Origin: Streptomyces sp. NBC_00461
GTDB taxonomy: Bacteria > Actinomycetota > Actinomycetes > Streptomycetales > Streptomycetaceae
DNA length: 64,000 bases
Direction of reading: 5' to 3'
Assembly (NCBI RefSeq): GCF_036013935.1
Contig: NZ_CP107902.1
Location: 7,163,001-7,227,000 of the forward strand
The notes beneath the pieces were generated by a model, which was given only the letters and a program-made list of their open reading frames with translations, was not told the origin of the DNA and made no database searches. Within the stretch, counting starts at the first letter, position 1. Each line of letters starts with the position of its first letter. The position numbers and the translations under genes were made by a program. This document shows positions 26,162 through 42,391 of this stretch, piece after piece.

Positions 26162-26459
26162 CTGATGCCGCGGCTTGGGATCACAGGCGTGTGCGCCAGG
26201 TGGTGCACGCGTCAACTACCGATACGGCGACCAGGCGTTCGAAAGCACGGTCGTCCGCCTGTCATGTGGCGCAAAACCGTAAACCTGCGGACCCTCGCTC
26301 GAATGGGTGATCCGTTTCACGCTCGGCGAGAGGCGGTCAGCCGCACGTGATGGGCTCGGTAGCATCAAGCACCGGCCCGGACGGGGGACCGTTGCCATCC
26401 CCTGAGCCGTGTCCGCCATGGGGCACCCCGTCCGCCGGTCCACGCAGCCGGAGGTGCCC

Positions 26460-28631
26460 ATGAGTGCGGAGGCCACGAATCCCGCGACCCCAGGTCCGGT
26501 AACAGGCTCGGCGGCGCGCTGGCGGGCGCGGATCGACCTGCGCCGCCTGGGCCGTGCCGCCCTGCTCGGCCCCGCCACCCGTGACCGGCTGCCCAGCGCC
26601 ATCGGCCATGTCGTCGAAGCTCACCGGGCCCACTACCCCGGCGCCGACCTCGACCCCCTGCGCCGCGCCTATGTGCTGGCCGAGTCCTCGCACCGCGGCC
26701 AGATGCGCAAGAGCGGTGAGCCGTACATCACACACCCCCTCGCGGTGACCCTGATCCTCGCCGAACTGGGCGCCGAGACCACGACTTTGACGGCTTCTCT
26801 GCTCCACGACACCGTCGAGGACACGGACGTGACGCTCGATCAGGTCGGCGAGGAGTTCGGGGCGGAGGTCCGCTACCTCGTCGACGGCGTCACCAAGTTG
26901 GAGAAGGTCGACTACGGCGCCGCCGCCGAGCCCGAGACCTTCCGCAAGATGCTCGTCGCCACCGGCAGCGACGTCCGTGTGATGTCGATCAAACTCGCCG
27001 ACCGGCTGCACAACATGCGCACCCTCGGTGTGATGCGCCCCGAGAAACAGGCGCGTATCGCCAAGGTGACCCGCGACGTCCTCATCCCGCTCGCCGAACG
27101 GCTCGGCGTCCAGGCACTCAAGACCGAACTGGAAGACCTCGTCTTCGCGATCCTGCACCCCGAGGAGTACGAGCACACACGGGAGTTGATCGTCGACAAC
27201 GCGTCCCGCGCCGACGACCCGCTCGCCGAGATCGCCGACGAGGTACGAGGCGTCCTGCGCGATGCCGACATCCCGGCCGAAGTCCTCATCCGGCCGCGGC
27301 ACTTCGTATCCGTCCACCGTGTCGCCCGCAAGCGTGGCCAGCTGCGCGGTGCAGACTTCGGCCGCCTGCTGGTGCTGGTGAACGAGGACGCGGACTGTTA
27401 CGGCGTACTCGGCGAACTCCACACGTGTATGACGCCCGTCGTCTCGGAGTTCAAGGACTTCATCGCCGTTCCCAAGTTCAACCTGTACCAGTCGCTGCAC
27501 ACGGCGGTCGCGCACGCGGACGGGCAGGTCGTCGAAGTCCTCATCCGTACCCACCAGATGCACAAGGTCGCCGAAGCCGGCGTCGTCGCGCTGGGCAATC
27601 CCTACGCTCCTCCTTCGGAGGAGCAGTCCTCGGTCGACGGCGAGCGCGTCGACCCCACCCGCCCCGGCTGGCTGTCCCGTCTCCTCGACTGGCAGGAGGC
27701 GGCGCCCGACCCCGACACCTTCTGGTCCACCCTCCGCGAGGATCTCGCCCAGGACCGTGAGATCACCGTCTTCCGTCCCGACGGCGGCACGCTCGGCCTG
27801 CCCGAGGGCGCCAGCTGTGTCGACGCCGCGTACGCCCAGTACGGCGAGGACGCGCACGCGTGCATCGGCGCCCGCGTCAACGGCCGCCTGGCGACGCTGA
27901 GTACGGTGCTGCGGGACGGCGACACCGTCCAGCTCCTGATGGGGCAGGACCCGGCCTCCGAGCCCTCCAGGGAGTGGCTGGAGCACGCTCACACGCCCGC
28001 CGCCCGGATCGCGATCCAGCGCTGGCTCGCTACCCACCCGGCGCACGACGACGTGCCGGAGGGGGAGCGGGCCGAGGAGCCGGAGAGGCCGCAGGAGACC
28101 GAGAAAGGGCCCTCGGCCGCTTCCCGGCCCGCCGGGCCCGCCGTCGAGGGGTCGCCCGCCATTGAGGGGACCAGCCGTCCCACCACCGCCGACATCACCG
28201 TCGACCAGCCCGGTGCGACCGTACGCCTCGCCGGCTGCTGCACGCCGGTACCGCCCGACGAGGTGACCGGGTTTGCCGTACGCGGCGGTGTGGTCACCGT
28301 CCACCGCGTCGAGTGCGCCGCGGTGGAGCACATGAAGAGCGGGGGGCGTGCGGAGGTCGACGTGCGCTGGGGGGACACCACCGAGTGCCGGGTCACCTTG
28401 CTGGCCGAATCGTTCAATCGCCCCCACCTGCTGGCGGATCTGACGGAGGCCATGGCCCTGGAAGGCGCCGAGATCGTCTCCGCGACGGTCGAACCCCCGA
28501 CCCAGCAGCGCGTCCGCCACACCTACACGGTCCAACTCCCGGACGCGGCCCAGTTGCCCGCACTGATGCGGGCGATGCGGAACGTGCCGGGCGTGTACGA
28601 CGTGAGCCGGGCGCAGACGCCGGGGGTGTGA
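26460..28631 (+). CDS. RelA/SpoT homologue (bifunctional (p)ppGpp synthetase/hydrolase type), RshA-like
   Basis: The protein has 723 residues. The HD hydrolase domain (~80-240) shows GEPYITHPLAV, LLHDTVEDTDVTLD and RLHNMRTLGVM. The synthetase domain (~280-390) keeps the catalytic Asp (RGADFGRLLVLV) and Glu (VEVLIRT), plus FKDFIAVPKFNLYQSLHTAV, but several basic residues of canonical RelA are replaced. A TGS domain (~430-490), a Pro/Glu-rich linker, a zinc-finger-like CCTPVPPDE and a C-terminal ACT domain follow. This is the second Rsh type of Streptomyces (RshA in S. coelicolor). ATG 26460 follows GGAGGTG. Confidence 0.9.
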   Translation: MSAEATNPATPGPVTGSAARWRARIDLRRLGRAALLGPATRDRLPSAIGHVVEAHRAHYPGADLDPLRRAYVLAESSHRGQMRKSGEPYITHPLAVTLILAELGAETTTLTASLLHDTVEDTDVTLDQVGEEFGAEVRYLVDGVTKLEKVDYGAAAEPETFRKMLVATGSDVRVMSIKLADRLHNMRTLGVMRPEKQARIAKVTRDVLIPLAERLGVQALKTELEDLVFAILHPEEYEHTRELIVDNASRADDPLAEIADEVRGVLRDADIPAEVLIRPRHFVSVHRVARKRGQLRGADFGRLLVLVNEDADCYGVLGELHTCMTPVVSEFKDFIAVPKFNLYQSLHTAVAHADGQVVEVLIRTHQMHKVAEAGVVALGNPYAPPSEEQSSVDGERVDPTRPGWLSRLLDWQEAAPDPDTFWSTLREDLAQDREITVFRPDGGTLGLPEGASCVDAAYAQYGEDAHACIGARVNGRLATLSTVLRDGDTVQLLMGQDPASEPSREWLEHAHTPAARIAIQRWLATHPAHDDVPEGERAEEPERPQETEKGPSAASRPAGPAVEGSPAIEGTSRPTTADITVDQPGATVRLAGCCTPVPPDEVTGFAVRGGVVTVHRVECAAVEHMKSGGRAEVDVRWGDTTECRVTLLAESFNRPHLLADLTEAMALEGAEIVSATVEPPTQQRVRHTYTVQLPDAAQLPALMRAMRNVPGVYDVSRAQTPGV

Positions 28632-30469: not shown

Positions 30470-31969
30470 ATGACCTCCTCTTCATCCCCTTCCCAGGACC
30501 AGGACACTGAGCGCTTCGCGCACACCTACCCCGAAGGTCTTCGGGCCGATGCCCTGATGGAAGAGGACGTCGCCTGGAGCCACGAGATCGACGGAGAGCG
30601 GGACGGCGACCAGTTCGACCGCTCCGAGCGCGCGGCCCTGCGCCGCGTGGCGGGCCTCTCCACCGAACTCGAGGACGTCACCGAGGTCGAGTACCGCCAG
30701 CTCCGTCTGGAGCGGGTCGTGCTCGTCGGCGTCTGGACCACGGGGACCGCACAGGACTCGGAGAACTCCCTCGCGGAGCTCGCCGCCCTCGCGGAGACCG
30801 CGGGCGCGCTGGTGCTCGACGGCGTGATCCAGCGCCGCGACAAGCCCGACGCGGCCACCTACATCGGTTCCGGCAAGGCCACCGAGCTGCGGGACATCGT
30901 CATCGAAACGGGCGCGGACACCGTCATCTGCGACGGTGAGCTCAGCCCGGGTCAGCTCATCCACCTCGAAGACGTCGTCAAGGTCAAGGTCATCGACCGT
31001 ACGGCCCTGATCCTCGACATCTTCGCCCAGCACGCCAAGTCCCGAGAGGGCAAGGCGCAGGTGGCGCTCGCGCAGATGCAGTACATGCTGCCCAGGCTGC
31101 GCGGCTGGGGTCAGTCGCTGTCCCGTCAGATGGGCGGCGGCAAGGGCGGCGGCCTCGCCACCCGTGGTCCCGGTGAGACCAAGATCGAGACGGACCGGCG
31201 ACGGATCCGCGAGAAGATGGCGAAGATGCGCCGGGAGATCGCGGAGATGAAGACCGGCCGCGAGATCAAGCGCCAGGAGCGCAAGCGCAACAGGGTGCCG
31301 TCCGTCGCCATCGCGGGCTACACCAACGCCGGCAAGTCCTCGCTGCTCAACCGCCTCACGGGCGCGGGCGTCCTGGTCGAGAACGCCCTGTTCGCGACCC
31401 TGGACCCGACCGTCCGCCGCGCGGAGACCCCGAGCGGCCGCCTGTACACACTGGCGGACACCGTCGGCTTTGTACGGCACCTGCCGCACCACCTGGTCGA
31501 GGCGTTCCGCTCCACCATGGAGGAGGTCGGCGAGTCCGACCTGATCCTGCACGTGGTGGACGGCTCGCACCCGGCCCCGGAGGAGCAGCTGGCCGCCGTG
31601 CGCGAGGTGATCAGGGACGTCGGCGCCACCGGCGTACCCGAGATCGTCGTGATCAACAAGGCGGACGCGGCGGACCCGTTGACGCTGCAGCGGCTCATGC
31701 GGATCGAGAAGCGTTCCATCGCGGTCTCGGCCCGTACCGGCCAGGGCATCGCGCAACTGCTCGCGCTCATCGACAATGAGCTGCCCAGGCCGTCGGTCGA
31801 GATCGAGGCGCTCGTGCCGTACACCCACGGCAAGCTGGTCGCACGCGCCCATGACGAGGGCGAGGTGCTGTCCGAGGAGCACACCCCGGAGGGCACCCTG
31901 CTCAAGGTCCGGGTGCACGAGGAACTGGCGGCCGACCTCGCGCCGTACGTTCCGGCGCCGCTCGCCTGA
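30470..31969 (+). CDS. hflX: GTPase HflX
   Basis: This 499-residue GTPase is a ribosome-splitting/rescue factor. The N-terminal HflX domain shows GVIQRRDKPDAATYIGSGKATELRD and RTALILDIFAQHAKSREGKAQVALAQMQYMLPRLRG. A Gly-rich turn and RGPGETKIETDRRRI follow. The G domain has GYTNAGKSS (G1, from residue 283), DTVGFVRHLP (G3) and VINKADAAD (G4). The start is ATG 30470 after TAAGGATC. A strong terminator follows. Confidence 0.96.
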   Translation: MTSSSSPSQDQDTERFAHTYPEGLRADALMEEDVAWSHEIDGERDGDQFDRSERAALRRVAGLSTELEDVTEVEYRQLRLERVVLVGVWTTGTAQDSENSLAELAALAETAGALVLDGVIQRRDKPDAATYIGSGKATELRDIVIETGADTVICDGELSPGQLIHLEDVVKVKVIDRTALILDIFAQHAKSREGKAQVALAQMQYMLPRLRGWGQSLSRQMGGGKGGGLATRGPGETKIETDRRRIREKMAKMRREIAEMKTGREIKRQERKRNRVPSVAIAGYTNAGKSSLLNRLTGAGVLVENALFATLDPTVRRAETPSGRLYTLADTVGFVRHLPHHLVEAFRSTMEEVGESDLILHVVDGSHPAPEEQLAAVREVIRDVGATGVPEIVVINKADAADPLTLQRLMRIEKRSIAVSARTGQGIAQLLALIDNELPRPSVEIEALVPYTHGKLVARAHDEGEVLSEEHTPEGTLLKVRVHEELAADLAPYVPAPLA

Positions 31970-34703: not shown

Positions 34704-35064
34704 GCTCTGACTCCCCCTGAGGTGAACTGAACGAACTGGGCGCTACCGCCGTGACCGCGCGCTCGGCGCAGGTGATCTCACACGAATGCTGATGTCACGC
34801 GACCTCACGCGACTTCACGGCTCCATGGAACGGCATCACACACTATGCGCTCGCTGTGGGGGACTTCCCACGGAACGGCAACGGTTCCGTCACGGCAAGG
34901 ATCTTGAAGCAACCCGTAACCCCGTGAGCCATCGGCGGTTGGTAGCGGTGGGGGTTCTGCTGTCCGTGTGCGGTCCCCTGGTGGGAGGACAGGGAGTCGT
35001 GGCCGAGTCTGCATGCGGCGGGAGTGTGCCCGAGGGATCTCCTGGACGGCGTGGTGTCGGTGCG
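34704..35064. other. Upstream region of the NIS-type operon
   Basis: The 361-bp gap is divergent between the protease pair and the aminotransferase. It holds a tandem 10-bp repeat (TCACGCGACC/T, from 34795 to 34814, with a third partial copy) and a 7-bp dyad ACGGAAC-N7-GTTCCGT at 34870-34890, a candidate operator. I find no match to the DmdR/IdeR iron box. An open frame continuing upstream of 35065 has atypical codon use and is not taken as coding. Confidence 0.55.
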
Positions 35065-36519
35065 GTGTCCGCGACGGCGCGGGCCGTGCACGAGGGGATC
35101 CTCCGGCGCCAGTCGGCGCGCGAATCGGCGGCGCGCACCTATGCGCGCGCCCTGCCGATCGTGCCCGTGCGGGCCCGGGGACTGACCATCGAGGGTGCCG
35201 ACGGGCGCCGCTACCTCGACTGCCTCTCCGGCGCCGGGACGCTCGCCCTGGGTCACAATCACCCCGTCGTGCTGGAGGCCATCCGGAAGGTCCTCGACTC
35301 GGGTGCACCGCTGCACGTCCTCGACCTGGCGACACCCGTCAAGGACGCCTTCGTCACCGAGCTGTTCCACACCCTGCCGCCCGGACTCGCCGACCACGCG
35401 CGCGTGCAGTTCTGCGGACCGGCGGGAACCGACGCCGTGGAGGCGGCGCTCAAGCTGGTCCGCACCGCGACCGGCCGAGCCGGAATCATGGCCTTCACCG
35501 GCGCCTATCACGGTATGACCGCCGGAGCGCTCGAAGCATCCGGGGACGCCTCACACACGCTGGTCGCGCGCCTGCCCTATCCGCAGGACTACCGCTGCCC
35601 GTTAGGCATCGGCGGCCCACAGGGTGCCGAACTCGCCGCCCGCTGGACCGAGTCCGTCCTCGACGACCCCAAGTCGGGTGTGCCGCACCCGGCCGGCATG
35701 ATCCTCGAACCCGTCCAGGGCGAGGGCGGGGTGATTCCCGCGCCGGACGCGTGGATGCGGCGCATGCGGGAGATCACGGCGACCCGCTCCGTCCCGCTGA
35801 TCGCCGACGAAGTCCAGACGGGAGTCGGACGTACGGGCGCCTTCTGGGCGGTGGAGCACAGCGGCATCACCCCCGACGTGATGGTGCTCTCCAAGGCCAT
35901 CGGCGGCAGCCTTCCCCTTGCCGTGGTGGTCTACCACGAGGACCTCGACGTCTGGGAACCCGGCACCCACGCAGGCACCTTCCGCGGCAACCAACTCGCC
36001 ATGGCCGCAGGCACGGCCACCCTGATCTACGTCCGCGAAAACCGCCTGGCCGAACGAGCGGCAACCCTCGGCTCTCGCATGCTCAACCAACTCGCAGCCC
36101 TGGCAGGAGAGTTCTCGTGCATCGGGGAAGTGCGAGGGCGGGGGCTGATGATCGGGGTCGAGTTCGTGGGCGGGGAAGGAGGCGGTGGGGCCCATTCGTC
36201 GGCACCTGAGCCAGGTGGGGTTCTTGACGGCGGGGTGACTCCGGCAGGGAAGCGGGGTCCCAGCGCGGACGGCCCGCGCCCCGCTGCTCCCGAACTCGCC
36301 GCCGCCGTCCAACGGGAGTGCCTGCGACGTGGCTTGATCGTCGAGCTGGGCGGCCGACATGCGAGCGTCGTGCGGCTCCTCCCACCACTGACGATCAGCG
36401 ACGAACAGGCGGCAGCGGTACTCGACCGACTGGCCGACGCGGTGGAGACGGCAGCCCGCGAGCTCGGGAGCGGTCGGGCGAAGGCCGGCGCGACAACTGG
36501 CGTAGGTGCGCACTTATAG
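35065..36519 (+). CDS. Class III PLP-dependent aminotransferase (diaminobutyrate aminotransferase-like)
   Basis: This ~484-residue fold-type I aminotransferase opens YLDCLSGAGTLALGHNHP and shows GPAGTDAVEAALKL, GAYHGMTAGAL, LIADEVQTGVGRTGAFWAVEH and the PLP Lys in VLSKAIGGSLP. It resembles DABA-2-oxoglutarate aminotransferases that feed siderophore pathways. An unusual ~45-residue insertion with Gly/Pro/Ala sequence splits the C-terminal domain near residue 375. Leu180 is a TTA codon (35602-35604), the rare bldA-dependent codon of Streptomyces. GTG 35065 is my choice; earlier starts are possible. It leads a three-gene operon. Confidence 0.85.
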   Translation: MSATARAVHEGILRRQSARESAARTYARALPIVPVRARGLTIEGADGRRYLDCLSGAGTLALGHNHPVVLEAIRKVLDSGAPLHVLDLATPVKDAFVTELFHTLPPGLADHARVQFCGPAGTDAVEAALKLVRTATGRAGIMAFTGAYHGMTAGALEASGDASHTLVARLPYPQDYRCPLGIGGPQGAELAARWTESVLDDPKSGVPHPAGMILEPVQGEGGVIPAPDAWMRRMREITATRSVPLIADEVQTGVGRTGAFWAVEHSGITPDVMVLSKAIGGSLPLAVVVYHEDLDVWEPGTHAGTFRGNQLAMAAGTATLIYVRENRLAERAATLGSRMLNQLAALAGEFSCIGEVRGRGLMIGVEFVGGEGGGGAHSSAPEPGGVLDGGVTPAGKRGPSADGPRPAAPELAAAVQRECLRRGLIVELGGRHASVVRLLPPLTISDEQAAAVLDRLADAVETAARELGSGRAKAGATTGVGAHL

Positions 36520-36628
36520 GCCCTTCTCAGCAGCAACATCTGTGTCCTTACGTTCACTTGGGCCCGTAGCCAATAGGACCAAGGCCCGCCCGCCACCGCA
36601 CAAGCCAGAACCACCCACGAGGATCACC

Positions 36629-39052
36629 TTGATTCCCACCCCCACACCCACCCCCACCCCCGCATCCGCATCCGGCGCCGGCTCTCCTATCCCTGAGGGA
36701 GGTCCCGACGACGCATCTCCCTCCCATCAGATCCGGCCCGCCCCGGCGGTCCCATCGGTGCCTTGTCGGGAGGGACGGGACGTGGGGCGTGCGCAGGAGC
36801 GGGAGCCGGAGCAGGGGCGGGAACAGGAGAGGGCGCAGGAACAGGCGCAGGAACAGGAACAGGAACAGGAGCAGGAGAGGGTCCCGGAGCAACGGAATGC
36901 GCCTGTCGGCGAGTTCCCTCGCCGGGCCCCCGCTGACCTCCTGGAGCACTCCGACACGGGCATCGCGGCCGAGGTCGCGGCCGTCGAGAACCTGCTGCGC
37001 TGCTGGGTGCGCGAAGCCGGCGTCCAGGCTCCCGACGACGGCACACTCCGCATCCCCCTGCCAGCCAGTGGCACTGCCCTCCTCGCCCCGGTCCACTACT
37101 GGTCCCCGACGGGATGGCACCGCTTCGGCCTCCCGTCCCTCGCCAACGCACCCGAGCAATCCCCGTCGGCCGACGCGGTCACAGTCGCCGCACTACTCGC
37201 CAGGGAGACCCCCGAACGCGGGCACGGCACCGCGGCCCTACCTGAGGCTCTCGGTGCTGCAACTGGGCTTGGCAGCGGCTTGCCCCTTGCCTCCTCGGGT
37301 TCTGTGACGATCGCCGAATCAACGGCTCCTGCCCCAGGTCCCGCGCCTATGACCGGGCCGCGGCCGGCTCCGGGTGCGGAGCCCGCGATGACAGCGGGCA
37401 CGCCGCCATGGACGCTCGCCCCGGGACCTGCGGCAACGGCAGGCGCTCCGTTTCCTGCTGCCTCCATGTCCGCCTCGCCGGCTCGTCCGCCATCGACTGC
37501 TGCCACCCCGGCATTCACCCCCACCCCCACCTCCACCCCCGACCTCGTTGTCCGCGTCGCCGACTCTCTCCGTCGCACCGTCACCTTCATTCACGAGCGC
37601 CGCCAGTGCCCCTCCGACGGCCCCGACCTCTTCCTCGCGGCCGAGCAGGCACTCGTACTCGGGCATCCACTGCACCCCACTCCGAAGAGCCGCGAAGGTC
37701 TCTCCGAGGCCGAAGCGTGCCTGTACTCACCGGAGTTGCGCGGCTCCTTCCCTCTGAACTGGCTCGCGGTCGCTCCCTCCTTGCTCGCCACGGACTCTTC
37801 CTGGACCGAGCGCGGTCGCCGTGTTCCCGCGCCACAACTCATGGCACGGCTCGCCGAAACCGAGCCGGCCCGGCCCGACGGCTACGCCCTCTTGCCCGTG
37901 CACCCCTGGCAGCTACGCGATGCCTGCCAACGCCCCGAGACCGCGGCCCTGTTCGACGCCGGGCTCCTCCGCGACCTCGGCACGCATGGCTCCCCATGGC
38001 ACCCCACCTCCTCCGTACGCACCGTCTATCGGTCCGGCTCCCCGGCCATGCTCAAGCTGTCTTTGGGCCTGCGGATCACCAACTCCCGCCGCGAGAACCT
38101 CCGCAAGGAACTGCATCGCGGCGTCGAGGTCCACTGCCTCCTGCGCAGCGGACTGTCCGAGCAGTGGCGGGCCGCCCACCCGGGGTTCGACATCGTCCGC
38201 GACCCGGCCTGGCTGGCGGTCGACACACCCGAGGGCAACCCCGTATCCGGACTCGACGTGATGATCCGGCACAACCCGTTCAGCCCGTCGGACGACGTCT
38301 CCTGCGTGGCAGGGCTCGTCTCGCCCCGGCCACAGGCACATGCACAGAAGCAGGCACACGCGCAGGCACAAACAGGCAGCAGCACCCCAGCGGGCATGGC
38401 GCGCCACCATCCGAAGTCGGCTTCGCAGCCCCTGTGCTCACGACTGGCCATGGTCGTCACGCGCCTTGCCGGTCGAACCGGTCGTCCTCGTGAGGCCGTT
38501 GCCGCCGAGTGGTTCCTGCGCTATCTGCAGCAGGTCGTCCGGCCCGTGCTGTGGCTGGACGCGGAGGCGGGGATCGCCCTGGAAGCCCACCAGCAGAACA
38601 CGCTGGTCCTGCTGGACGCCGACGGCTGGCCTGCGGGCGGCCGCTACCGCGACAACCAGGGCTACTACTTCCGCGAGTCCAGGCGCGCGGAACTCTCCGA
38701 GCGACTGCCCAGTATCGGTGAGCGCAGCGACACCTTCGTGTCCGACGAGGTCACCGACGAGCGTTTCGCCTACTACCTGGCGATCAACAACGTGCTCGGC
38801 CTCATCGGCGCCTTCGGTTCCCAGCGTCTCGCCGACGAACGGCTGCTGCTCGCCGCCTTCCGCCGTTTCCTCAGCGACATTGCCTCCGGACCCGCCCGGC
38901 TGCACACCTCACTCCCAGCCCACCTGCTGGACTCACCGGTCCTGCGCTGCAAGGCCAATCTGCTGACCCGGCTGCACGGCCTCGACGAACTCGTCGGCCC
39001 GGTCGACACCCAGTCCGTCTACGTCACCATCGCGAACCCCCTCCACTCCTGA
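36629..39052 (+). CDS. IucA/IucC family NRPS-independent siderophore (NIS) synthetase
   Basis: NIS synthetases adenylate a carboxylate such as citrate and join it to an amine or alcohol. The family marks are GHPLHPTPKSREGLSE, LPVHPWQL and, in the FhuF-like C-terminal domain, EAHQQNTLVLLDADG and GYYFRES. From TTG 36629 it has 807 residues, against ~600 for the family; the excess is three low-complexity inserts (Thr-Pro and Gln-Glu N-terminal tract, Ala/Pro insert near 37320-37540, Gln/Ala/His insert at 38331-38385). TTG 36629 follows GAGGA; GTG 36782 behind GGGAGGG is an alternative. GTG 36506 would include atypical codons and a TTA. Confidence 0.88.
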   Translation: MIPTPTPTPTPASASGAGSPIPEGGPDDASPSHQIRPAPAVPSVPCREGRDVGRAQEREPEQGREQERAQEQAQEQEQEQEQERVPEQRNAPVGEFPRRAPADLLEHSDTGIAAEVAAVENLLRCWVREAGVQAPDDGTLRIPLPASGTALLAPVHYWSPTGWHRFGLPSLANAPEQSPSADAVTVAALLARETPERGHGTAALPEALGAATGLGSGLPLASSGSVTIAESTAPAPGPAPMTGPRPAPGAEPAMTAGTPPWTLAPGPAATAGAPFPAASMSASPARPPSTAATPAFTPTPTSTPDLVVRVADSLRRTVTFIHERRQCPSDGPDLFLAAEQALVLGHPLHPTPKSREGLSEAEACLYSPELRGSFPLNWLAVAPSLLATDSSWTERGRRVPAPQLMARLAETEPARPDGYALLPVHPWQLRDACQRPETAALFDAGLLRDLGTHGSPWHPTSSVRTVYRSGSPAMLKLSLGLRITNSRRENLRKELHRGVEVHCLLRSGLSEQWRAAHPGFDIVRDPAWLAVDTPEGNPVSGLDVMIRHNPFSPSDDVSCVAGLVSPRPQAHAQKQAHAQAQTGSSTPAGMARHHPKSASQPLCSRLAMVVTRLAGRTGRPREAVAAEWFLRYLQQVVRPVLWLDAEAGIALEAHQQNTLVLLDADGWPAGGRYRDNQGYYFRESRRAELSERLPSIGERSDTFVSDEVTDERFAYYLAINNVLGLIGAFGSQRLADERLLLAAFRRFLSDIASGPARLHTSLPAHLLDSPVLRCKANLLTRLHGLDELVGPVDTQSVYVTIANPLHS
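36632..36661 (-). repeat. C-run tract, G-quadruplex-capable on the minus strand
   Basis: Five runs of three to five C separated by one to three bases (CCC, CCCCC, CCC, CCCCC, CCCCC) begin just after the TTG start of the NIS synthetase. The minus strand therefore has five G runs with short loops, a classical quadruplex pattern. In frame it encodes Pro-Thr repeats. Confidence 0.7.
36791..36893 (+). repeat. GAG/CAG hexamer repeats encoding a Gln-Glu tract
   Basis: About 100 bp are built of near-identical 6-bp units (CAGGAA, CAGGAG, GAGCAG, GCGCAG) encoding a QEQEQEQE-type stretch in the N-terminal tail of the NIS synthetase. Such units are prone to slippage, so length may vary between strains. 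Confidence 0.8.
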
Positions 39053-39140
39053 CAACCAAACCCGACACCGCCGATCATCACCAGCTCCCTTCCGTACCTG
39101 AGGAACATGCCCCACCCCGCCTTCTGAGAGGAGCGTCGTC

Positions 39141-39953
39141 GTGCCTCCCACCGACGCCAGCGCACACGCAGCCACCGCCCCCAGCACCGACACGGGCGCG
39201 GATACGAGCCCCCGTACGGCTGACTGCGGTACCGGCCTGGGCACGGACAGCGAGGACACGCTGGATCTGCGTCTGCCGGACGAGCTGGTTGCGCTCTTCG
39301 CAGCGGAGGCCGACCCAGGCGAGGCACCGAGTCGGCGCGAAGCCATGACTTCGCCCATCCCTCCGGGCACCGTGGCCGTCGACGACCTCCTCGACCGTGT
39401 CGCCGGTTGGGGGCCGGTCGTCACGCCCGTGGGCATGTTCCACCTTGTCCCCGTGCGCGTAGAGCGAGACCTGCCGCTGATCAGCCGCTGGATGAACGAC
39501 CCTGCCGTAGCGGAGTTCTGGGACCTGTCCGGCCCACAGACCGTGACCGAGAGCCACCTGCAGGCCCAGCTGTCCGGTGACGGACGGAGCGTGCCCTGCC
39601 TCGGAGTGCTGGAGGGCAGACCCATGAGCTACTGGGAGATCTACCGGGCAGATCTCGACCCACTGGCCCGCCACTATCCCGCTCGACCTCACGACACCGG
39701 AATCCACCTCCTCATCGGCGGTGTCGCCGACCGTGGCCGCAAGCTCGGCAGCACCCTGCTCAGAGCCGTGGCCGACCTCGCGCTCGACAAGCGGCCTGCC
39801 TGCGCACGCGTCATCGCGGAACCCGACCTTCGCAACACCCCCTCCATCGCTGCCTTTCTGAGCGCCGGCTTCCGGTTCTCCGCCGAGGTCGACCTGCCCG
39901 CCAAACGGGCCGCCTTCATGGTCCGAGACCGGTCCCTGCGTAATCTGCTGTGA
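39141..39953 (+). CDS. GNAT acetyltransferase, siderophore type (IucB/AlcB-like)
   Basis: This 270-residue protein has a variable N-terminal ~90 residues and a GNAT domain of the N6-hydroxylysine acetyltransferase family: HLVPVRVERDLPLISRWMNDPAVAEFW, then YWEIYRADLDPLARHYPARPHDTGIHLLIG, a Gly-rich acyl-CoA loop ADRGRKLGSTLL and VIAEPDLRNTPSIAAFLSAGFRF. It would acylate an amine or hydroxylamine building block used by the NIS synthetase encoded 88 bp upstream. GTG 39141 follows GAGAGGA. No lysine or amine hydroxylase gene is present, so the usual hydroxamate route is not complete here. Confidence 0.88.
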   Translation: MPPTDASAHAATAPSTDTGADTSPRTADCGTGLGTDSEDTLDLRLPDELVALFAAEADPGEAPSRREAMTSPIPPGTVAVDDLLDRVAGWGPVVTPVGMFHLVPVRVERDLPLISRWMNDPAVAEFWDLSGPQTVTESHLQAQLSGDGRSVPCLGVLEGRPMSYWEIYRADLDPLARHYPARPHDTGIHLLIGGVADRGRKLGSTLLRAVADLALDKRPACARVIAEPDLRNTPSIAAFLSAGFRFSAEVDLPAKRAAFMVRDRSLRNLL

Positions 39954-40414
39954 CGCCATGCCGCTGCATCATCACTCTTGGTACACCGCTCACCTCGATC
40001 CGGTTCCCATCACCACCGAACCGATCTTCGGCCGGGCCGGGCTCTCGCGTAGCCGATCTCCGACCGCGCCGGTCTCTACCGAGCCCATCGCTCACCGCGC
40101 CGATCACACCCGAGCCGATCTCTCTCGCGCGGATCCCTCAGGCACCCCGGCAGCCTTCCCCCGCGCCCAAGCCGCTCTCTCTCTCGCACCCCCTCGACCC
40201 GCTCGACCTGGCTGCGCCCGGCTCACGGCTCCACCCCCGCGCCATCCCGCACCCCGCCATCCGCCCCGATCGCCCCCTCCCCCCGGCGGTCCGCCCCACC
40301 GCCTTCCCAGGCAATCCTCCCGACCTCACCCGAGGAGCACACGGTCTTGATCCCGCCCCTCACCCCCGCTTTGATCACCCGTTTGTCAGTGCCGGGTCGT
40401 AGGGTGGTCGCGCT
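39954..40414. other. C-rich, G-poor intergenic stretch before dinG
   Basis: The 461-bp gap holds no convincing gene. Frames that stay open on the plus strand encode Pro/Arg/His-rich sequence without conserved pattern. The plus strand is strongly C-rich and G-poor, with CTCTCTCTCT at about 40170 and repeated ACCGA(A/G)CC(G/C)ATC motifs at 40010-40130. No LexA box is visible upstream of dinG. Confidence 0.6.
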
Positions 40415-42391
40415 ATGACGAAGCCCTCACTCCCCGAACTCCTGCATGCTGCCGTCACTGCCGTTGGCGGTACGGAGCGCCCCGGCCAGGTGACCATGGC
40501 CGAAGCCGTCGCGGAGGCGATCGACGACGGTTCCCATCTGCTGGTCCAGGCCGGCACCGGCACCGGAAAGTCGCTGGGCTATCTCGTGCCCGCGCTCGCG
40601 CACGGGGAGCGTGTCGTCGTCGCGACGGCCACCCTCGCGCTGCAGCGCCAGCTCGTCGAGCGGGACCTGCCGCGCACCGTCGAGGCATTGCACCCCTTGC
40701 TGCGCCGCCGCCCGGAGTTCGCGATGCTGAAGGGCAGATCGAACTACCTCTGCCTGCACCGTCTCCACGAGGGCGTCCCGCAGGACGAGGAGGAGGGACT
40801 CTTCGACCAGTTCGAGGCAGCCGCGCCCACCAGCAAGCTGGGTCAGGACCTGCTGCGGCTGCGCGAATGGTCCGACGAGACCGAGACAGGGGACCGCGAC
40901 AACCTCACGCCCGGAGTGTCCGACCGCGCGTGGGCGCAGGTGTCGGTCTCCTCCCGGGAGTGTCTGGGCGCCACGAAATGCGCATACGGCGCCGAGTGCT
41001 TCGCCGAGATGGCCCGCGAGCGTGCCAAGCTCGCAGAGGTCGTCGTCACCAACCACGCGCTGCTCGCGATCGACGCCATCGAAGGCGCCCCGGTCCTGCC
41101 GCAGCACGAGGTACTGATCGTCGACGAGGCACACGAGCTGGTCTCCCGCGTCACCGGAGTGGCCACGGGCGAACTCACGCCCGGCCAGGTCAACAGAGCC
41201 GTGCGCCGCGCGGCGAAGCTCGTCAACGAGAAGGCCGCCGACCAGCTCCAGACCGCCGCCGAGGGCTTCGAGCGGCTGATGGAGCTGGCTCTGCCGGGCC
41301 GCCTGGAGGAGATCCCGGAGGACCTCGGGTACGCGCTCATGGCGCTGCGCGACGCCTGCCGAACGGTGATCTCCGGGATCGGCGCGACCCGCGACAAGTC
41401 CGTCCAGGACGAGGACGCGGTCCGCAAGCAGGCACTGGCGTCCGTGGAGTCAGTGCACGACGTGGCGGAACGGATCACCAACGGCTCCGAGTGGGACGTC
41501 GTCTGGTACGAGCGCCACGACCGCTTCGGTGCCTCCCTGCGCGTCGCCCCCATGTCCGTGTCGGGCCTGCTCCGGGAGAAGCTCTTCGCAGACCGCTCCG
41601 TGGTCCTGACCTCAGCAACGCTGAAGCTGGGCGGCGACTTCAACGGCGTCGGCGCCTCCCTCGGACTCGGTCCGGAAGGCACGGAGGGCGAGGACCTGCC
41701 GCAGTGGAAGAGCGCCGACGTCGGCTCGCCCTTCGACTACCCCAAGCAGGGCATCCTCTACGTCGCAAAGCATCTGTCGCGGCCCGCGCGGGACGGCGAC
41801 CGCGCGGACATGCTGGACGAGCTGACGGAGTTGATCCAGGCAGCGGGCGGCCGCACCCTCGGCCTCTTCTCCTCCATGCGGGCCGCGCAGCTCGCCGCCG
41901 AGGAACTGCGCTCCAGGATCCCGGAGTTCCCGATCCTCCTCCAGGGCGAGGAGACGCTCGGCGAGCTGATCAAGAACTTCGCCGCCGACCCCAAGACCTG
42001 CCTGTTCGGCACCTTGTCGCTCTGGCAGGGTGTCGATGTCCCGGGCTCCAGCTGTCAGCTGGTGGTCATGGACAAGATTCCGTTCCCGCGCCCGGACGAC
42101 CCTCTGATGAGCGCCCGCCAGAAGGCGGTGGAAGACGCGGGAGGCAACGGCTTCATGGCGGTCGCCGCCACGCACGCCGCGCTCCTCATGGCCCAGGGCG
42201 CCGGCCGCCTCGTACGGGCGTCGGGTGACCGCGGCGTGGTCGCCGTACTGGACCAGCGACTGGCCACCGCCCGCTACGGAAGCTATCTGAAGGCGTCACT
42301 GCCGGAGTTCTGGTACACGACGGACCGCAACCAGGTCCGCAAGTCGCTGGCGGCGATCGACGCGACGGCGAAGAAGACAGAGGCGGAATGA
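40415..42391 (+). CDS. dinG: DinG-family ATP-dependent DNA helicase
   Basis: This 658-residue XPD/DinG superfamily 2 helicase has Walker A AGTGTGKSLGY (near residue 47), the DEAH box VDEAHEL (D237) and the C-terminal helicase motifs LGLFSSMRAAQLAAEEL, LWQGVDVPGSSCQLVVMDKIPF and QGAGRLVRASGDRG. Four Cys (e.g. CLHRLH, SSRECLGATKCAYGAECFAEMA) match the iron-sulfur cluster domain of the family. It unwinds DNA with 5'-3' polarity, likely removing R-loops or other blocks. ATG 40415; convergent with lexA. Confidence 0.92.
   Translation: MTKPSLPELLHAAVTAVGGTERPGQVTMAEAVAEAIDDGSHLLVQAGTGTGKSLGYLVPALAHGERVVVATATLALQRQLVERDLPRTVEALHPLLRRRPEFAMLKGRSNYLCLHRLHEGVPQDEEEGLFDQFEAAAPTSKLGQDLLRLREWSDETETGDRDNLTPGVSDRAWAQVSVSSRECLGATKCAYGAECFAEMARERAKLAEVVVTNHALLAIDAIEGAPVLPQHEVLIVDEAHELVSRVTGVATGELTPGQVNRAVRRAAKLVNEKAADQLQTAAEGFERLMELALPGRLEEIPEDLGYALMALRDACRTVISGIGATRDKSVQDEDAVRKQALASVESVHDVAERITNGSEWDVVWYERHDRFGASLRVAPMSVSGLLREKLFADRSVVLTSATLKLGGDFNGVGASLGLGPEGTEGEDLPQWKSADVGSPFDYPKQGILYVAKHLSRPARDGDRADMLDELTELIQAAGGRTLGLFSSMRAAQLAAEELRSRIPEFPILLQGEETLGELIKNFAADPKTCLFGTLSLWQGVDVPGSSCQLVVMDKIPFPRPDDPLMSARQKAVEDAGGNGFMAVAATHAALLMAQGAGRLVRASGDRGVVAVLDQRLATARYGSYLKASLPEFWYTTDRNQVRKSLAAIDATAKKTEAE

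Follow-up and report, generated by a model that had tools for sequence, protein, structure and literature searches.

Which metabolite is made by a Streptomyces NIS operon that is accompanied neither by hydroxylase and decarboxylase genes nor by an iron box? This question is raised by the csb locus of Streptomyces sp. NBC_00461, which we analysed together with its surroundings in a stretch of 64,000 nucleotides (the window) and compared with the corresponding loci of relatives.

The csb operon and its distribution

The preliminary description of the locus, namely a DABA-type aminotransferase, a NIS synthetase and an IucB-like acyltransferase encoded on one strand, was borne out by Pfam, TIGR00709 and structure matches (Table 1). 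The csbA product matched Aminotran_3 (E 7e-85) and TIGR00709 'dat' (477 bits, cut-off 401.6), its closest solved structure being an EctB-type DABA transaminase (251 bits). The csbB product contains IucA_IucC (E 1e-65) and FhuF (E 2e-36) and is closest to the structure of IucA (177 bits), and the csbC product is a PF13523 acyltransferase (E 7e-48) with MbtK as its closest solved structure (129 bits). The starts of csbA, whose frame is open from 34786, and of csbB, open from 36506 with a low-complexity N-terminus, are uncertain. In six examined loci at least 1 kb separates csbA from csbB. An extra gene in this gap was considered and rejected, since the csbB frame runs through the gap in the four of these loci for which frames were listed (L137, L146, L161, L169), which makes a long CsbB N-terminus likelier.

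Table 1. Positions of the csb genes and neighbouring features in the window.
Feature	Position	Strand	Remarks
Conserved non-coding element	34877..34906	+	~190 bp before csbA; distinct from an iron box
csbA, DABA-type class-III aminotransferase	35065..36519	+	Pfam Aminotran_3; TIGR00709 above cut-off; PLP-lysine motif LSKAIGG
csbB, IucA-type NIS synthetase	36506..39052	+	PF04183 and PF06276; closest solved structure IucA
csbB Arg codon aligned with AcsD R299	38072..38074	+	kept in the window; lost repeatedly in csbD-less relatives
csbC, IucB/MbtK-type N-acyltransferase	39141..39953	+	PF13523; MbtK 128.5 bits
Gap at the missing place of csbD	39954..40414		461 bp; no csbD-like protein piece
Remnant of the csbC-csbD leader, where csbD sits in other species	39973..40008	+	12-base core exact
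dinG/yoaA-type helicase gene	40415..42391	+	conserved downstream flank of csb

The flanks were likewise described correctly: two trypsin-like genes lie upstream (Trypsin_2 being a weak match, E 0.002, under the curated cut-off), as does hflX (30470-31969), and a DinG/YoaA-type helicase is encoded on the other side. The order csbA-csbB-csbC ahead of dinG is that of the cryptic siderophore cluster published as csb (excerpts of PMC9600172), so the operon itself is not new. The csb cluster of Streptomyces sp. YIM 121038 has the same gene order and the same place before dinG, but it possesses csbD, which the window lacks. The S. coelicolor equivalent is SCO5799-SCO5801 (a passage in PMC7324645). 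The three-gene locus near hflX to which the preliminary description had pointed in that species thus exists, but has already been published as csb. In the literature searched no described csb product was found. Csb is a very widespread orphan NIS locus: of the 150 Streptomyces genomes sampled 140 gave csb matches, and all 66 genomes from other genera of the family contain csbB or a close homologue.

Iron box, upstream element and expression

As had been noted before, no iron box lies near the operon. Scored against what we take to be the DmdR/IdeR consensus, the 64-kb window contained no match with up to three mismatches, and none of 140 csbA upstream regions contained one with up to five. By the same scoring the box is present in all eight of the compact paralogous clusters described below (1-4 mismatches), unlike the csbA upstream regions, a difference revealed by sequence comparison that appears to be new; the des cluster of the same genome carries a box with two mismatches. 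The conserved element upstream of csbA recurs with 0-3 mismatches in 44 of the 140 regions and is the sole match in the window, where none is expected by chance.

Csb may not be a siderophore pathway at all, given the lack of an iron box and of a transporter gene at the locus and, in one published data set, an expression opposite to that of iron siderophores. The expression of SCO5799 and SCO5801 changes with development (PMC3610822).

Loss of the second synthetase gene

The usual Streptomyces cluster includes csbD, a DesD/IucC-like second synthetase gene, which was present in 49 of 80 sampled loci. The three-gene description is accurate for the window but overlooked the gene that has been lost here; by sequence comparison the three-gene form is derived, csbD having disappeared in the window's lineage, and this too is new. 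No protein relic of csbD was found in the window's own gap, and among 101 gaps searched a clear piece was detected solely in L119, with a weak 44-residue match in L026. The core of the csbC-csbD leader was found with at most one mismatch in 35/104 csbD-less and 10/56 csbD-bearing loci and in 0/800 shuffles. A second, IucC-type synthetase is absent from the locus; the genome keeps only DesD and the synthetases of other clusters.

The loss of csbD might mean that the siderophore cluster is decaying and no longer functions in the window's lineage. In favour of this, csbA is absent or broken in 10/80 csb loci and csbC is lost in one, the CsbB arginine aligned with AcsD R299 is missing in 17/105 csbD-less versus 0/56 csbD-bearing loci, and dN/dS, measured pairwise only, is higher in csbD-less pairs (csbA 0.198, csbC 0.214) than in 21 csbD-bearing pairs (0.123, 0.136). 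We nevertheless regard decay as unlikely: the window genes are open, dN/dS is about 0.2, a csbC knockout was not obtainable in a csbD-bearing strain according to excerpts of PMC9600172, and the developmental changes of SCO5799 and SCO5801 mentioned above speak against it. Furthermore, CsbB, for which a loss of catalytic residues had been considered, retains in the window the residues aligned with AcsD S279, K293, R305 and H444, which are invariant in 161/161 loci. Arg305 was also examined as the lost residue and rejected, the alignment placing the loss at Arg299.

An unlinked decarboxylase-hydroxylase pair

The reported lack of a hydroxylase and a decarboxylase in the flanks was confirmed, all ten PF13434 and four PF00282 matches in the genome lying outside the window. 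The genome-wide search for the missing enzymes revealed a DABA-decarboxylase-like gene (dec) adjoining a diamine-N-hydroxylase-like gene (hyd) at 2.51 Mb, 4.68 Mb from csb. This pair occupies a fixed pepN-pyk site in Streptomyces and has no NIS gene nearby; neither a transporter nor an iron box was found there or at csb, and a promoter element common to csbA and dec was looked for without success. The nearest solved chain to Dec is 2qma (239 bits), and the nearest matches of Hyd reached 322, 312 and 305 bits, with lysine and ornithine hydroxylases at most at 152 bits. The label DABA decarboxylase has also been given to a DesA homologue (excerpts of PMC6011815), so that the substrate of Dec does not follow from its name. 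For S. coelicolor, SCO2016/SCO2017 as the pair was a guess for which no relevant literature was found, and it is not claimed here.

In the sister genus g3, dec-csbB-csbC-hyd adjoins dinG in 5/5 examined loci, with csbA present in four of them. Among the joint operons the order is csbA-dec-csbB-csbC-hyd-csbD in L334, L374 and L375 and csbA-dec-hyd-csbB-csbC in L339, and by coordinates dec lies within 6 kb of csbB in 23/66 non-Streptomyces genomes of the family. In favour of a link between the two loci, the L339 copies of dec and hyd belong phylogenetically to the same clade as the unlinked pair; against it, those of g3, g4 and g5 lie outside this clade, so that the pair represents a replacement copy rather than the same genes relocated. 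Eight compact paralogous clusters also unite csbA', dec', csbB', hyd' and csbD', but a csbC-like gene was not found in any of them. These comparisons indicate that the operon is probably half of a NIS pathway encoded at two loci, the dec-hyd pair supplying the missing enzymes. The earlier suggestion that enzymes from other parts of the genome contribute thus finds good support in the pair and the joint operons of sister genera. Both the pair at its fixed site and these joint operons emerge as new from the sequence data, and the excerpts of PMC9600172 do not name the pair.

Among 150 Streptomyces genomes a strong dec match was missing in 10/10 without a csbB match versus 10/140 with csbB. This co-occurrence comprises four losses on the tree, with few independent pairs, and the tree-aware test was not significant. 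G014 and G032 keep hyd though they lack csbB, and dec was seen missing at the pair's own site solely in G014, G044 and G131. Since the searches scored 10-20 candidate places per genome, and the dec search missed the dec' genes in the compact clusters of G044 and G121, such absences are provisional.

The distance of 4.68 Mb and the ten csbB-bearing genomes without a strong dec match would also fit a non-hydroxamate compound, as proposed earlier, in which csbABC alone yield an N-acyl-diaminobutyrate-citrate amide chelating via carboxylates and dec-hyd is irrelevant; moreover, excerpts of PMC9600172 describe the YIM 121038 CsbC as acylating non-hydroxylated amines, e.g. ornithine and putrescine. 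The occurrence of dec and hyd within csb operons of sister genera, in g3 at the dinG site, renders this quite improbable.

That the pair serves another NIS system (e.g. desferrioxamine homologues or the L182/L183 NIS pairs), leaving csb without decarboxylase and hydroxylase, appears very improbable. Three further NIS loci exist in the genome, Dec and Hyd share 38-39% identity with its DesA and DesB, and a second type of dec-hyd pair (L284-L288, L297) has no csb-like gene in the stretch examined; however, des possesses its own decarboxylase and hydroxylase, and except for L291, where a hyd homologue adjoins a csbD-like gene, solely csb-type genes were found linked to the dec-hyd set. A main role in N-acylation of amines by CsbC (detoxification or antibiotic modification) is hardly credible: according to excerpts of PMC9600172 the YIM 121038 enzyme inactivates several antibiotics in vitro and its gene confers low-level resistance in E. 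coli but has no effect in S. lividans, and such a role would explain neither the conservation of csbA and csbB nor the linkage of dec and hyd.

Proposed pathway

The best reading of the two loci is a schizokinen/rhizobactin-like pathway that would yield an N-hydroxy-diaminopropane-citrate product and is apparently not subject to classical iron control. CsbA would form L-2,4-diaminobutyrate, which Dec would convert to 1,3-diaminopropane for N-hydroxylation by the flavin monooxygenase Hyd. CsbC would then acylate the hydroxylamine, probably with succinyl-CoA, which the YIM 121038 enzyme uses as an N-succinyltransferase (excerpts of PMC9600172), or possibly with acetyl-CoA, before CsbB joins the acylated product to citrate. 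In csbD-bearing loci the DesD/IucC-like CsbD presumably performs a second coupling to a schizokinen-like bis-amide. As csbD was lost in the window's lineage, the product here is probably a mono-amide, unless CsbB (or DesD) couples a second time. Comparison shows which genes are present, how they are linked in relatives, that csbD was lost and that an iron box is missing; from this we infer the individual reactions and their sequence, the product, and that it serves as a metallophore.

We tentatively extend this to Streptomyces and much of the family, which might possess an undescribed N-hydroxy-diaminopropane-citrate metabolite whose pathway is split over two fixed sites, has escaped classical iron regulation and is activated late in development, csbD-less lineages including that of the window making a shorter single-synthetase product with a relaxed need for one CsbB arginine. 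If true, this would be a metallophore-type pathway outside the iron regulon. Cluster-based mining sees the csb half alone and would therefore mispredict the chemistry. Identification of the second locus provides the full enzyme set for reconstitution and concrete mass predictions, and makes the question of the csb product testable in S. coelicolor.

Comparison with known systems

The NIS set of rhizobactin 1021 and schizokinen comprises a DABA aminotransferase, a DABA decarboxylase, a diamine hydroxylase, an acyltransferase and an IucA-type synthetase. Homologues of all five enzyme types are encoded in the window's genome. The proposed csb pathway differs in its two unlinked loci, the lack of an iron box and of a transporter at the locus, the lack of a second synthetase in the window and perhaps in succinyl-CoA as acyl donor. 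Desferrioxamine biosynthesis employs the same decarboxylase and hydroxylase families as dec and hyd, and CsbD is DesD-like; des forms a separate cluster with its own box in this genome, without a citrate-type synthetase in the 8 kb examined. Rhodochelin and erythrochelin, both NRPS systems, are siderophores built from unlinked loci. The proposed csb pathway would resemble them in this respect, but is a NIS system and near-core in a genus.

The csb operon and its surroundings

The three genes of the window (table) represent an already known orphan cluster. According to the accessible part of its description, the cryptic siderophore cluster csb of Streptomyces sp. YIM 121038 consists of csbA, csbB, csbC and csbD followed by dinG, lexA and nrdR; its CsbC acts as a broad N-succinyltransferase in vitro, disruption of csbC was impossible, no product was seen by LC-MS, and the authors themselves remarked that an iucD-like hydroxylase gene is missing (PMC9600172). 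Excerpts of two further papers term SCO5799-5801 of S. coelicolor a putative siderophore locus (PMC7324645, PMC3224560). New in the present analysis are the probable other half of csb, the derived state of its three-gene form and the finding that neither half carries an iron box.

Features of the window
Feature	Position	Remark
RelA/SpoT homologue	26409-28631	second type; HD, RelA_SpoT, TGS and ACT domains; upstream of csb
conserved non-coding element	34877-34906	upstream of csbA, between it and a divergent trypsin-like gene; inverted repeat around
csbA, aminotransferase	35065-36519	open frame
csbB, IucA-type NIS synthetase	36506-39052	open frame
low-complexity N-terminal part of csbB	36506-36960	length very variable among relatives (L161, L169, L137)
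CsbB arginine aligned with AcsD R299	38072-38074	next to the conserved ITNSRREN motif
csbC, acyltransferase	39141-39953	open frame

By sequence, the nearest solved relatives are an EctB-type DABA transaminase for CsbA, IucA for CsbB and MbtK for CsbC. The preliminary description had seen correctly that these genes are present and that further enzymes are missing there; the gap of 461 bp between csbC and dinG contains neither a family match nor a piece of csbD. Upstream of csb, an M1 peptidase gene and hflX come after the RelA/SpoT homologue. In the relatives L161 and L169 the csbB frame stays open for about 2070 codons.

The single 10.37-Mb contig to which the window belongs carries six NIS genes, namely csbB, one desD-like gene and two further pairs. 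One of these pairs, two divergent genes, lies at G000:C1:7885000-7889000 (L182); the 16 kb fetched there contain no DmdR-like box with up to 6 mismatches, and no transporter was detected among the scanned proteins.

An unlinked decarboxylase-hydroxylase pair

The earlier suggestion that the pathway borrows enzymes encoded elsewhere is well supported, the other half of csb probably being an unlinked pair of a diaminobutyrate-decarboxylase-like gene (dec) and a diamine-N-hydroxylase-like gene (hyd). Only two of the ten PF13434 matches in the genome are strong (>370 bits), one beside the desD-like gene and the other at 2.513-2.514 Mb, where it adjoins one of the four PF00282 decarboxylases. This pair lies 4.68 Mb from csb, has no NIS genes nearby and is neighboured by genes for pyruvate kinase, a cyclic-nucleotide phosphodiesterase and an M1 peptidase. 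The closest relatives of its products are a DABA decarboxylase and diamine N-hydroxylases, respectively, and both share 38-39% identity with the strain's own DesA- and DesB-like proteins. No description of the pair appeared among the results listed for the CC0, CC BY and CC BY-SA literature, although it may still be in print.

Among 150 Streptomyces genomes strong matches were detected for hyd in 133 (E <1e-160) and for dec in 130 (E <=1e-80); a few of these copies are partial or belong to compact clusters. Of 22 Streptomyces stretches that surround the pair (L184, L222-L234, L292-L296, L298, L300, L301), 20 have both genes as neighbours, with hyd alone in L232 and L234; 21 show the M1 peptidase and 20 show pyruvate kinase. 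Six further stretches (L284-L288, L297) hold a second type of dec-hyd pair without a csb-like gene, and in L291 a hyd homologue adjoins csbD-like and glutamine-synthetase-like genes.

A strong dec match is lacking in all ten genomes without a csbB match vs 10 of the 140 with csbB (Fisher p = 1.6e-10). Reading of the dinG flank revealed seven true absences of csb, with csbA retained alone in G092, and three contig ends (G028, G050, G139; csbD at the contig edge in the first two), without which p is 8e-8. However, the tree shows only four csb losses, each in a dec-negative clade, which places significance out of reach of an independent-pairs test. Since the dec and csbB searches scored no more than 10 or 11 candidate places in each genome, and the dec search missed the compact-cluster copies of G044 and G121, dec absence is provisional save in G014, G044 and G131, where it was confirmed at the pair site. 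The hydroxylase gene is less tied to csb, as G014 and G032 possess hyd but not csbB.

Furthermore, eight compact Streptomyces clusters (L215-L221, L290) unite paralogues of csbA, dec, csbB, hyd and csbD. A glutamine-synthetase-like gene and a DmdR-like box (1-4 mismatches) were detected in all eight, a match to the MFS gene of L219 in six (L219 counted), a binding-protein gene in four and a csbC-like gene in none.

Linkage in other genera of the family

All 66 non-Streptomyces genomes of the Streptomycetaceae (16 genera) encode CsbB or a close homologue (E <=1e-40), and 61 have a dec match. By coordinates dec lies <6 kb from csbB in 23 of them (genera g2 2/3, g3 14/14, g4 1/1, g5 4/4, g9 1/2, g12 1/1), the linked g9 copy (G171) being of the compact type. 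In the remaining genomes dec is >100 kb away on the same contig (6), on another contig (32, a count that draft assemblies can inflate) or not found (5).

The five fetched g3 loci (L335, L370-L373) show the order dec-csbB-csbC-hyd beside dinG, so that the csb operon at this very site includes the "missing" genes. Four of the loci carry csbA in front of dec, and in L373 no csbA was detected over the 1.65 kb past dec. The order is csbA-dec-csbB-csbC-hyd-csbD in L334, L374 and L375 (g2, g4, g5) and csbA-dec-hyd-csbB-csbC in L339 (g12), dinG not being within these four stretches. Checking of the frames in L335, L371, L374 and L339 revealed no stop codons. The genes are split differently in g14, with csbA-dec in L336 (G162) and csbB-csbC-hyd in L347 (G214), the latter 1.27 Mb from dec. 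In the small family loci L305-L333, nine of them from Streptomyces, hyd adjoins dec in 29 of 29.

In protein trees the clade of the unlinked pair includes Dec and Hyd of L339. Since those of g2, g3, g4 and g5 fall outside it, the unlinked pair is probably a replacement copy and not a piece excised from the dinG-site operon. A single dec match (E <=1e-75) per dec-positive non-Streptomyces genome, G171 excepted, suggests that linked and unlinked forms replace each other.

Loss of csbD and the CsbB arginine

The three-gene form of the window is derived. Of the 140 csbB loci found in the 150 genomes, which were drawn across the genus, 80 were fetched in handle order, though not without gaps; 49 of them contain csbD and 31 yielded none, two of the latter calls being unsure (L104 stops at a contig end; the rearranged L108 of G012 has a csbD piece of 204 residues adjoining dinG). 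Absent or broken copies of csbA occur in 10 of the 80, of csbC in one. Seven csbD-bearing loci occur among the 80 named ones closest to the window, L074 being cut by a contig end. The gap in L119 holds an 82-residue C-terminal csbD piece, 89% identical to csbD of L131, and many csbD-less loci, including the window, retain the csbD leader, whose 12-base core (<=1 mismatch) was detected in 35/104 csbD-less and 10/56 csbD-bearing loci and in 0/800 shuffles. Presence of csbD requires at least 9 changes on the dinG tree, with the same minimum on the csbB tree. CsbD resembles DesD (332 bits), AlcC (310 bits) and IucC (288 bits).

Four active-site residues of AcsD (S279, K293, R305 and H444) have aligned counterparts in CsbB that are unchanged in 161 of 161 loci; the two locus sets behind this count overlap by one genome or more (L086 and L175). 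The arginine aligned with R299 is kept in all 56 csbD-bearing loci and replaced in 17 of 105 csbD-less loci by C, H, S, P, N, Q or K, while neighbouring residues are fixed; the tree requires at least 15 such losses, and among the 196 columns that do not vary in csbD-bearing loci this one is the most varied and second least conserved. Outside Streptomyces, the csbD-less loci L341, L371, L372 and L373 have lost it, and L335 and L370 retain it. Counter to the trend, W stands at this position in csbD-bearing L277 of Streptomyces and R in csbD-less L274. With further loci of known csbD state the loss amounts to 21/112 vs 1/68 (Fisher 3e-4, uncorrected for descent). The simplest reading would be that the need for this arginine relaxed once CsbD was gone.

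Median pairwise dN/dS is 0.19-0.21 for csbA, csbB and csbC vs 0.06 for dinG. The higher values of csbA and csbC in csbD-less pairs (0.198 and 0.214) than in 21 csbD-bearing pairs (0.123 and 0.136) could indicate some relaxation.

Regulation

No DmdR-like box within 5 mismatches was detected in 140 upstream regions (500 bp) of csbA, the best being 6 in one region; by contrast, a box with 2 mismatches is present in the des region and two with 5 in the strain's NIS cluster L183. In 19 dec upstream regions the best matches had 5-10 mismatches (5 in L296, 6 in L231 and L293) vs 7-10 in shuffles. The linked g3, g4 and g5 operons lack a box as well (best 8 mismatches). However, boxes occur in L334 (3 mismatches), L339 (2) and the g11/g14 stretches L337 (3 and 4) and L336 (3), so that box absence characterises the Streptomyces halves and g3-g5 but does not extend to the family as a whole. 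The conserved element upstream of csbA was not found upstream of dec.

Data from S. coelicolor show log2 increases of 1.3-1.8 for SCO5799 and SCO5801 at 48-72 h, together with decreases of 3.2-3.7 for desA and lowered coelichelin genes (PMC3610822), and part of a copper study gives -1.3 for SCO5800 vs +1 for SCO2783 and +0.6 for SCO2785 (PMC6414726). However, an SCO3201 overexpression strain is described with lowered sco5799-5801, desferrioxamine and coelichelin genes alike (PMC7324645), which counts against a strict opposition of csb and siderophore genes.

Proposed pathway and comparison with known systems

Based on the enzyme families, CsbA would form diaminobutyrate, which Dec would convert to 1,3-diaminopropane, and Hyd would turn the latter into N-hydroxy-diaminopropane; CsbC would then acylate it to N-acyl-N-hydroxy-diaminopropane and CsbB would join this to citrate as an amide. 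Schizokinen is the bis-acetyl form of such a product. The parts seen of two studies report it, or detect it tentatively by LC-MS, in Streptomyces (PMC11865988, PMC13136089); as the gene content of the clusters is not given there, we regard this as a lead only. According to the accessible text on rhizoferrin, that siderophore needs just one NIS synthetase (PMC7857480).
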